Shown here piece after piece: positions 3,797 to 59,513 of a DNA stretch of 64,000 nt. The number at the start of each line of letters is the position of its first letter. Position 1 is the stretch's first letter. Source of the DNA: Bacteroidia bacterium (GTDB lineage: Bacteria; Bacteroidota; Bacteroidia; CAIKAF01); assembly GCA_030427255.1 (NCBI GenBank), contig JAUHWY010000002.1, positions 186,001 to 250,000 on the forward strand, in the 5' to 3' direction. The translations under genes were made by a program, and so were the position numbers. The notes under the pieces are model-generated. The model ran no database searches and had not been told where the DNA came from. It saw only the letters and a list, made by a program, of their open reading frames with translations.

Positions 3797-3892
3797 GGCC
3801 ATCTTTCAAAATCCCCCTTTGATTTTCTCTTATAAGGAAATCGCTTGAAAAGGGTCCTTTCTTTCTAGCTTATGGTATTCATACGGAGCTTA

Positions 3893-4030
3893 AGCGGGAG
3901 GGATGGAGCCGATACCCCACAAGCCCAAAGCAAAGACGCCCAAGGGCTTGCCGGGCGGCGCAACGCAAGCCACGGCAAGCATTATGGGCGACTTGCTTTG
4001 GGGTGAGGAGTAAAGGTGAGAGCCCGTCCC
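3893..4030 (-). repeat. Structured intergenic element A (framework-plus-hairpin family)
   Basis: This GC-rich element lies between two convergent genes. Read on the minus strand it has the 5' half GGCTCTC..TTTACTCCTC (GGAGTA on the plus strand at 4007-4012) and the 3' half GGGGTATCGGCTCCATCCCT (TACCCC on the plus strand at 3913-3918), with a variable hairpin between. Its flanks align closely with element B at 17344, and its apical loop resembles those of B and G. No reading frame here looks real. Confidence 0.75.
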
Positions 4031-4047
4031 TATGGGCCCGCCCAAAT

Positions 4048-17038: not shown

Positions 17039-17729
17039 GTTTTGGCGGTTGTGCTTCTTGATTCGAATACTAAGTTAAACACTTCATTTAATAAATGGAA
17101 ATAGCATTTCAATCGATTCCGGTGTTTGAAGGGACTATTTGAATACTAGTTGAAACTATTAAGAACAAGGCTTTGTTGAAAACCCTGTAAATAGCTGTAT
17201 TAAAAAGTCTTAATCCTTTGAGTTCAACTGAGGGTGAAGGAAAAAAAAGAATATTATTTTTTCCCCAAAGCGAAAGAATTCCGGCTAAAAAGGGTGAAAT
17301 ACTCAATAGGAGCATTCTTTTACTCATGGCCGCACCCGGAAATCCGGGTCGGGCTGTCGGCTTTACTCCTCGCCCCAAAACAGGTCGCCCATAGGCCAAG
17401 GAGGGGCTTGCTGCGCTCCGCCCTCCTAGGCCTTGGCCGTCACTGCTTTGGGGCTGTGGGGTACCGCCTCCATCCCTTGCGGTGCGCTCCGTAGCGCATG
17501 TATCGATATGCCGGAACCTAGAAAATTTCAAGGTATTTCTTACCTGATTTCGCTGCAAAGATACAAAGCGCCCGCGGGCAATCCGATAGCCAACCGAAGG
17601 TAGAAAGCCATTTGGCCTTGGAGGGCAGCGGCTCCGCCTCAAGCGGAGACCCTGTACCGACTTAGGCCAAAGGCTTGAACCAAGGTTGCTAAAGGGGCGC
17701 ACGCGAATTGGCGCCCAAAACTTTTCTAG
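17039..17729. other. Long intergenic region upstream of the giant gene
   Basis: No credible gene lies in these 691 bases. A long open frame on the minus strand (17109-17702) has no family resemblance, and it crosses the structured element at 17344-17481. Bases 17040-17330 are AT-rich and may hold the promoter and leader of the giant gene, but I see no clear TAnnTTTG box there. Confidence 0.6.
17344..17481 (+). repeat. Structured intergenic element B
   Basis: This is the clearest member of the element family. The 5' half is GGGCTGTCGGCTTTACTCCTC, with TACTCC at 17364-17369; the 3' half is GGGGTACCGCCTCCATCCCT, with GGGGTA at 17458-17463. Next inside, CCCCAAAACAG pairs with CTGCTTTGGGG. A hairpin arm GGCCAAGGAGGG / CCCTCCTAGGCC carries the loop GCTTGCTGCGCTCCG, which is identical to the loop of element G. 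It lies 3' of the carbonic anhydrase gene. Confidence 0.8.
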
Positions 17730-26086: not shown

Positions 26087-26401
26087 AATTAGTTTTTGTA
26101 CTTTAAAGATACAAAATCGCAGCCATTGGTTGCAAGCACCCCCATTTTTAATCCATAACTTCAACCCAAATACGATTTTTTTTTGAGGGAAGGGCCTATG
26201 AACAGGCTAAACCAGCTTAGGGTAGAAGCATGTTTAAAATTTGGGCGCCTATCCCGCTTTCGGCGGTAGTCCTCGTTCGGGGGCTTATTGGCCATAGCCC
26301 GCCGGAGCGTTCGCATGCGCTCCACGTCCACCGCGCTTGGCCAAAAAAGCCCCCGCCCTGTGGGCTACCTGCCTCTATCGGGGGCGCAGTGCTCCGAACG
26401 C
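26087..26401. other. Intergenic region between the beta-barrel gene and ychF
   Basis: The 315 bases hold the presumed promoter of the beta-barrel gene next to 26086 and the structured element C (26243-26388). I see no gene. Confidence 0.6.
26243..26388 (+). repeat. Structured intergenic element C
   Basis: The 5' half contains CTTTCGGCGGTAGTCCTCG (TAGTCC at 26267-26272) and the 3' half GTGGGCTACCTGCCTCTATC (GGGCTA at 26362-26367). Within it GGGGGCTT (26279-26286) pairs with AAGCCCCC (26347-26354). The apex carries GGAGCG..GCGCTCC. Its outer halves align best with element F. It lies just 3' of ychF. Confidence 0.75.
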
Positions 26402-28593: not shown

Positions 28594-28691
28594 CAAAAAG
28601 GGAGTGTTGAAGCCTAGTAGATTAGCTTTGTTGGACTGTTTTGGTACAAAAATTGCCTTAAAGTAAGAGAGGGGTTTGCGTGTGGGCGGGG

Positions 28692-28827
28692 CCCGGATGG
28701 AGGAGCATAGCTGACTGCAGGCGCACCGTGCTGCGGCACCGAGCGAGGAGGCCCCCGTTAATTAACGGGGGACCCCGGAGCCGGTAGCCGCAGCCGGTGG
28801 GCCAAAGGCACTATGCCCGAGAGCCGG
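28692..28827 (-). repeat. Structured intergenic element D with a perfect 20-base palindrome
   Basis: On the minus strand the halves are GGCTCTCGGGCATAG and CTATGCTCCTCCATCCGGG; on the plus strand GCATAG (28705-28710) and CTATGC (28811-28816) pair perfectly. Inside, 28752-28771 is a perfect 20-base palindrome with centre GTTAATTAAC and five G/C pairs at each end. The element lies 3' of dacB. Confidence 0.7.
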
Positions 28828-28845
28828 AAAGCCCCCCAAAAAAGC

Positions 28846-40552: not shown

Positions 40553-40557
40553 TTTTT

Positions 40558-40704
40558 TGGGCGGCTAATCCGTCTCCGGCTCCAAATCCTCGGTTGCCTG
40601 CCTGCTTTGGCTAAGCGGTGCGTGGGCTCGCTACCACTCCGCCTCCGCCCGCCAAGCCAAAGCGGCAGCCATCCTCCGGGTTTTTCACCTCCACCGGGCC
40701 GCTT
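40558..40704 (+). repeat. Structured intergenic element E
   Basis: This is the most diverged member. The 5' half is CCGTCTCCGGCTCCAAATCCTC (AAATCC at 40584-40589) and the 3' half GGGTTTTTCACCTCCACCGGG (GGGTTT at 40678-40683). The pairing positions have changed together with the other copies. A hairpin arm pairs GCTTTGGCT with AGCCAAAGC. It lies between convergent genes, 3' of the CWC gene. Confidence 0.6.
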
Positions 40705-48419: not shown

Positions 48420-48458
48420 ATCTGGGGGAGCGTTTGCCCTTGGAGGTGGAACTTTGCG

Positions 48459-48600
48459 GCAAGGATTGCAGCGGTAGCCCACAGTTTCAAGGCCTTGGTA
48501 TTTGCGGCTTGCCGGGAGCGACCATAGGAAGCTCCCCGGAAAGCCTGCAAAACCCGGCCTTGAAACGAGGACTACAAGCGAAAAGCCTGCTCGGCCGCCC
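48459..48600 (-). repeat. Structured intergenic element F
   Basis: On the minus strand the 5' half is GGCTTTTCGCTTGTAGTCCTC and the 3' half GTGGGCTACCGCTGCAATCC (GGACTA at 48569-48574 and TAGCCC at 48475-48480 on the plus strand). An 11 bp perfect stem, GTTTCAAGGCC at 48484-48494 with its complement at 48556-48566, opens the variable arm, which continues as a long imperfect hairpin. It lies 3' of ftsK and upstream of lolA. Confidence 0.75.
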
Positions 48601-48630
48601 AATCCAATATTCATGCATCTAATTTGTCTT

Positions 48631-54548: not shown

Positions 54549-54669
54549 AAGCACAGCGTTTTAAGCTCCAAATGCTTCGGGAATTCCCCGGGGGACGGGG
54601 AAGCCAAGAGGAGACCACAAAAATACGGAATTCCCTTTTTGGGTCAAATAGCTCCGAAGAATCATGCCG

Positions 54670-54806
54670 CCCGGATGGAAGCAGGTACCGTGTTTTGGGC
54701 GAAGGCCTGGCACCGCCTGCTTTTGCGGGCGACCGGAGGAAGCCCCGTGAAAAGTAGTGCGGTGACGGCCTGAGCACAGAAGACGTACCGCAGACAGCCG
54801 GATAGG
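54670..54806 (-). repeat. Structured intergenic element H
   Basis: On the minus strand the halves read GGCTGTCTGCGGTACGTCTTC and GGTACCTGCTTCCATCCGGG. GGTAC (54684-54688) and GTACC (54785-54789) can pair. The arm between pairs CACCGC with GCGGTG and GCTTTT with AAAAGT. Outside it, 54575-54660 holds a second inverted repeat (GGGAATTCC/GGAATTCCC, enclosed by CTTCGG/CCGAAG). It lies between divergent genes, unlike most other copies. Confidence 0.65.
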
Positions 54807-54923
54807 CGACTTTTGGGCTATGCACTAGCAGAGAATGGAGGCCAAGAGGCTTTCTTTAAGTGAATTTTGGAACCTTACAACGCCGTGCGGCCCTAATAAA
54901 GCCCAACAAACCACTTCACTTGT

Positions 54924-59334: not shown

Positions 59335-59354
59335 TTATGTTTTTGGGGCACAAC

Positions 59355-59481
59355 CGGGCTGTCTCTGCTGGTCCTCAGTGCCAAGCTAAGGATCTGCTGG
59401 CCTGCGGGGGCTTGCTGCGCTCCGCCTCCTTCGGCCGGCAGCTCCTAAGCTTGGCACTTCCGGGCCATCCGTTCCATCCCT
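59355..59481 (+). repeat. Structured intergenic element G
   Basis: The halves are CGGGCTGTC..TGGTCCTC (TGGTCC at 59369-59374) and CGGGCCATCCGTTCCATCCCT (GGGCCA at 59462-59467). Between them a long stem (AGTGCCAAGCT with AGCTTGGCACT, then CTGC..GGCC with GGCC..GCAG) carries the same loop as element B (GCTTGCTGCGCTCCG). It lies 3' of the ferredoxin reductase gene. Confidence 0.75.
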
Positions 59482-59513
59482 GTGCCATGCCCAAATTGTA
59501 GTGCACTTGTTTT

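Follow-up and report, generated by a model that had tools for sequence, protein, structure and literature searches.

The REP/BIME repeats associated with TnpA-REP (RAYT) are dispersed intergenic palindromes with genome-wide copies, which sometimes lie beside Y1 genes and are presumed to be recognised in folded, single-stranded form; the REP unit is 20-40 nt long. ERIC/IRU and other palindromic MITE-like repeats are imperfect intergenic palindromes of about 130-150 bp, and they occur in many copies. For Bacteroidetes, Quentin et al. 2018 (PMC6006769) mention 'atypical secondary structures' adjoining Y1 genes of subclass 2.6, and no REP are reported for subclass 1.2 (PMC6006769). The attC sites of integrons vary in sequence and have a variable terminal structure, with a bottom-strand fold in which unpaired bases are kept (PMC2727003).

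The hairpin element described here shares with REP/BIME the dispersed intergenic palindromes, the genome-wide copies, the occasional position beside Y1 genes and the presumed reading as a folded single strand. It is, however, about 80-160 nt long and contains several covarying helices, and no GT[AG]G or CGTC foot is conserved at its 5′ end, which sets it apart from the GTAG/CGTC-tagged REP. No transposase gene lies between its hairpin ends, and it is not an IS200/IS605 element, because its cores of 75-96 nt are too short for a transposase. Size, imperfect palindrome, intergenic site and high copy number are as in ERIC/IRU, from which the element is set apart, by description, by its modular cores and by alternative base pairs common to genera. 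The 'atypical' structures may be related to it; the Y1 genes near the element look by motif like subclass 1.2 or 2.4, not 2.6. The features of attC named above are shared, but no integron integrase was found in the ten genomes searched, and the element has no gene cassettes and is scattered singly between genes.

The window, i.e. the whole stretch of 64,000 nt of a Bacteroidia bacterium that was analysed, contains eight copies, A to H. The interval 26243-26388, for which the earlier note had described an inner framework helix with paired base changes, is copy C of a dispersed hairpin element of about 150 nt with natural limits at about 26240-26389; this copy lies beside ychF. The complete element (26240-26389, + strand) scored 78.3 bits with R1, a covariance model built from copies A-H and one further copy of the own genome. 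The other copies are A (3892-4046, − strand, 56.0 bits), B (17325-17484, +, 50.6 bits), D (28686-28840, −, two pieces of 19.5 and 15.2 bits), E (40556-40704, +, 47.2 bits), F (48454-48603, −, 60.2 bits), H (54664-54814, −, 36.4 bits) and G (59342-59488, +, 57.5 bits), the diverged copy D having the lowest model score. The quoted helix variants, i.e. TAGTCC/GGGCTA in C and F, TACTCC/GGGGTA in A and B, TGGTCC/GGGCCA in G and AAATCC/GGGTTT in E, together with GCATAG/CTATGC in D and GGTAC/GTACC in H, were read directly in the sequences exactly as written. A CHU_C domain (type IX secretion) is also encoded in the window, in agreement with Bacteroidota.

The element is present in at least about 50 copies between genes of its own genome, and relatives carry copies too. 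In the own genome (G000, 3.22 Mb), where 150 of 825 candidates were scored, at least 94 matches to R1 had E≤1, and 53 complete copies of 141-163 nt were extracted, in addition to fragments and one short form; R2, a model of the framework only, performed poorer than R1 in genome searches. Among 80 genomes drawn from the class, matches at E≤0.001 occurred in at least 22, a lower bound set by strict filters. Several families of the class have shorter forms, about 80-115 nt long, with the pattern GGGCGTGCCC..GGGTCGGGCT..AAGTCCTCG..TGTGGGCTT..ATCCCTCACGC. The only short form among the sampled own-genome copies (88 nt, locus L019) adjoins a cobalamin riboswitch (RF00174, 100 bits, L019 1662-1843). 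A plasmid and phage search with one short-form element gave no match, and a literature search covering few subscription papers found no account of this hairpin family. Another dispersed repeat, whose ends resemble GAGACCG(T/C)TGACACGTTGT, is inserted within several copies or right next to them; in the own genome this repeat was located at L046 (184-478), L054 (about 482), L058 (about 615) and L060 (about 491), and also downstream of L057 and L042. The L057 flank that holds it has at least 20 matching places in G004, a genome of the same genus.

The framework of the element (P1, P2, P3 and inner stem) is fixed, with short helices set apart by conserved mismatches and loops. In the orientation of copy C as shown, here called the top strand, the outer end consists of TTTGG, the 5-bp helix P1 (GCGCC at 26245-26249 with GGCGC at 26383-26387), a bulge of 2-5 nt on the 5′ side, and the 4-bp helix P2 (CCCG at 26253-26256 with CGGG at 26379-26382), which stacks directly on P1 along the 3′ side; copies A and B have a small extra hairpin at the bulge. 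In the internal loop between P2 and P3, conserved GCTNTC faces CNNCAT and holds two more covarying pairs. P3, the inner framework helix of the earlier note, is formed by TAGTCC (26267-26272) and GGGCTA (26362-26367), and its best-supported register has three pairs (TAG/CTA) and two pairs (TC/GG), separated by a G that bulges from the 3′ arm, not six continuous pairs. Inside P3 lies a 3x3 loop, in which CTC faces TGT or TCC, followed by the inner stem and the variable core hairpin (26278-26355; inverted repeat I1 with arms at 26278-26306 and 26327-26355). The core, inner stem included, is 75-96 nt long and terminates in a hairpin. The flanks are T-rich at the 5′ side, and the 3′ side repeatedly shows a tail similar to ATTCTTCCAAA or GCTCCG. 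Helix sequences vary freely but in a paired fashion, and loop sequences are conserved.

Covariation was assessed on 47 distinct own-genome copies, whose 5′ and 3′ halves were aligned separately and by sequence alone, since the alignment should not be fitted to a structure. The null followed the idea behind R-scape: every column was evolved in simulation on a FastTree phylogeny, with as many changes as that column had; this is an approximation for repeat copies, because they are not strictly independent lineages. In the first run, 14 of 3655 column pairs lay above all 91375 null values, and with 800 simulated alignments 13 pairs had E<0.05 (10 of them E<0.01). Of the 13, eleven join antiparallel Watson-Crick partners, located in P1 (5′-7/3′-40 and 5′-9/3′-38, E≤0.005), P2 (5′-16/3′-35, E=0.0012, base-paired in 47 of 47 copies), the loop pair, P3 (5′-29/3′-23 and 5′-31/3′-21, E=0.0012) and the inner stem; two (5′-14 and 5′-16 with 3′-36) are register neighbours inside P2. 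Besides the helix first noticed, at least three others covary in the rod of about 150 nt. In alignment A3, 87.6% of cells pair vs 62.7% in shuffles, 242 cells changed on both sides vs 86, and the covariation score was 0.555 vs 0.145; a shift of the 3′ half by 1-3 columns lowered pairing to 35-53% and destroyed the signal. Among the 28 candidates that a regex scan of other genera returned, the P3 triplets were exactly complementary in 20 (AAG/CTT 10, TAG/CTA 7, TAC/GTA 3) vs 6.4 in shuffles (maximum 14 in 5000), the remaining eight being judged by inspection mostly false or misplaced pattern matches. The arms of each stem change jointly, so it is the folded shape, not the sequence, that is kept.

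The close relative G004 belongs to the same genus as the own genome and shares about 91% DNA identity with it over the ychF region. In 30 orthologous pairs, a set leaning towards copies that R1 detects in both genomes, median identity was 0.966 in the element vs 0.848 in the flanking 240 bp, and the element exceeded its flanks in 28 of 30 pairs (Wilcoxon p=2e-6); copy C is 97% identical to its orthologue. Ten further copies without an R1 partner, checked via joined flanks, were all filled by about 150 bp. All of the about 41 sites with two testable flanks, L018/L104 included, were filled in both genomes and none was empty; therefore the comparison gives no direct evidence of mobility, and the combination of filled and empty orthologous sites that defines a MITE was not found between G000 and G004. 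At the ychF loci of G001, G002, G003 and G005 there was no R1 match, and the flanks were too diverged to define an empty site. One core swap excluded, the changes in predicted pairs between orthologues comprised 8 single changes that keep and 51 that break pairing, as well as 13 compensated and 3 uncompensated double changes, with 2.4 doubles expected under independence. Over this evolutionary distance, then, single breaks can persist, and compensated changes clearly exceed expectation. Paired sites changed at a rate of 3.0% and unpaired sites at 7.5%. Covariation beyond the tree null, loops conserved across genera and orthologous copies that differ less than their flanks clearly indicate that the helix is constrained, as the earlier note had argued for RNA or extruded DNA.

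The two strands can be told apart by transition mismatches, as a G.T corresponds to an A.C on the opposite strand. With the top strand folded, the orthologue comparison gave 31 A.C and 8 G.T, and with the bottom strand folded 30 G.T and 6 A.C. The asymmetry was similar when G.T pairs were forbidden in the fold, and the folding program is therefore not its source. Static 1x1 mismatches, the conserved P3 T.G left out, numbered about 10 G.T vs 26 A.C on the top strand, and predicted energy was lower for the bottom strand in 20 of 30 copies. In paralogue helices P1-P4 both kinds were about equal (16 G.T, 19 A.C), and the conserved T.G pair of P3, which is G.T on the top and A.C on the bottom strand, is contrary to a bottom-strand reading. 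A mutational strand bias may also lie behind the asymmetry, though element orientation is mixed. The balance favours folding of the bottom strand, the reverse complement of copy C as shown, and hence a single strand (RNA or ssDNA). A symmetric cruciform, one way to take the extruded DNA of the earlier note, is not favoured, because orthologues tolerate mismatches that are G.T on the bottom and not on the top strand (30:6).

Our tentative preference is for a REP-like intergenic DNA element whose bottom strand folds when single-stranded and is recognised as a fold by a protein, the copies being static and held by purifying selection; we regard this account as quite possible. Folding would probably take place in replication, and the protein would recognise both the shape and the bases in the loops, as is the case for REP or IS200/IS605 ends with HUH (Y1) single-strand transposases. 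The family could then be seen as an 'atypical REP' whose copies now stay put under purifying selection on the fold, with template switching or conversion, between arms and between copies, helping to keep the arms complementary and swapping cores.

Nine Y1 genes have an element within about 500 bp: L006, L007 and L355 in G000, L354 in G002 (a low-scoring, disrupted copy), L193 in G063, L197 in G056, L191 in G029, L192 in G067 and L203 in G059. The gene was on the 3′ side of the element in all nine (two-sided probability about 0.004 if sides were random). By a rough estimate, about two Y1 neighbours are expected by chance over all genomes, mostly in G000 and G056, and proximity is weak evidence in G000 because elements are very dense there. 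In 80 kb of unselected sequence per genome, the number of elements was 0 in G029, G067 and G063, 6 in G056 and 1 in G059. Read from the catalytic motif and not from a tree, the Y1 proteins at L006, L007, L191, L192, L193, L197 and L203 are like subclass 1.2 of PMC6006769, least clearly so for L007, and those at L354 and L355 like subclass 2.4. An obligate link to subclass 1.2 genes was rejected, as only one of 80 Y1 loci picked by protein similarity alone had an element; G009, G024 and G030 carry elements and gave no PF01797 match. The element is possibly a substrate of HUH (Y1) transposases, in an association that is not obligate.

Y1 transposases with the motif Y..NQ..(H/R)H (subclass 1.2-like) themselves have short palindromes next to them, often on either side, that differ from locus to locus, such as CGCTCCTACGGAGCT and CCCCGAAGGGGTCG; these were seen at L005 (1370-2210), L006 (1150-1370), L007 (1325-1350 and 1840-1870), L191, L192, L193, L197 and L203. 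At L354 (2174-2261), the 5′ framework of a degenerate copy is broken by a GAGACGCACAATTGTGCGTCTC palindrome, and similar palindromes lie just outside this copy, near the subclass 2.4-like Y1 gene.

Somewhat unlikely in our estimate is that the bottom-strand transcript acts as a structured RNA, either a small RNA or an mRNA-borne element of processing, stability or regulation. Strong helix covariation and tolerance of G.T on one strand are what RNA would be expected to display, and the predicted energies point to the same strand, but the conserved P3 pair would be A.C in such a transcript, and G.T makes up only about 1-2% of paired cells when one conserved pair is left out. Element orientation is random relative to genes: the 41 copies with two callable neighbours lay between tandem genes on the bottom (12) or top strand (11), convergent genes (10) or divergent genes (8), as expected without preference, which speaks against an mRNA-borne role, and a cis-acting mRNA element was rejected as the main reading on this ground. 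Gaps between element and gene are short (medians 54 and 96 bp). An intrinsic terminator was rejected as well, since on the top strand the T-run is located upstream, which is the wrong polarity, and no Rfam covariance model matched the element at either gathering or relaxed threshold.

Unlikely, too, is a mutational origin with little selection on the fold, in which the arms stay complementary through template switching at quasipalindromes and through conversion between copies. Template switching at palindromes is a described process that can yield simultaneous paired changes (PMC8794818), and paired change is for this reason not all credited to selection. Whole cores have been exchanged: between the orthologues L055/L100, about 40 nt on each outer side are nearly identical and the core of about 75 nt is replaced, and at L018/L104 a core is likewise replaced between near-identical outer parts. 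Within the genome, framework and core identity are weakly linked (r=0.23), near-identical cores occurring in different frameworks; L055 and L058 have a common core (0.79) and differing frameworks (0.56), and L014 and L016 a common framework (0.95) and differing cores (0.59). Compensated changes are clustered in copies B, L033 and L025, some of them adjacent or in blocks, and G.U intermediates are scarce in P1-P3. Copying between arms and between copies may therefore supply part of the covariation. Such copying should, however, remove mismatches, but particular mismatches and loops persist within and across genera, which is the main argument that the fold is recognised; moreover, entire elements are better conserved than their flanks, and the strand asymmetry is not predicted by copying.

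More doubtful still is a broader version, in which the elements would be class-wide chromosomal single-strand fold sites, fixed and better conserved than neighbouring DNA, whose inner hairpin module is swapped by a dedicated strand-specific enzyme. An attC-like site, at which a tyrosine recombinase would exchange cores on the folded bottom-strand hairpin, is highly improbable: the folded bottom strand, the bulges, the variable hairpin at the tip and the exchange of cores recall the attC form (PMC2727003), but no integron integrase (TIGR02249) lay above the curated cut-off in any of 10 genomes, the exchanged part is a non-coding hairpin, and no attC boxes were seen by eye. In a separate observation, G000 and G004 contain many fragments of about 60 aa, often with stops, that match only the C-terminal end of the TIGR02249 tyrosine recombinase model (positions about 250-315), among others at C42:35164-35355, C5:6400-6576 and C44:18462-18653 of G000; one in G004 is about 300 bp away from one of the dispersed repeats with GAGACCG(T/C) ends.

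Palindromes between genes are usually regarded as remnants of decaying transposons. In this case, covariation, the asymmetry between strands and the conservation of orthologues together suggest a one-strand fold kept at many sites and in several families of the class, in a hairpin family without an Rfam model. The family is a tractable natural data set for weighing selection on a fold vs upkeep of palindromes by template switching, and, for the Y1 proteins that are uncharacterised in these bacteria, the element is a concrete candidate substrate.
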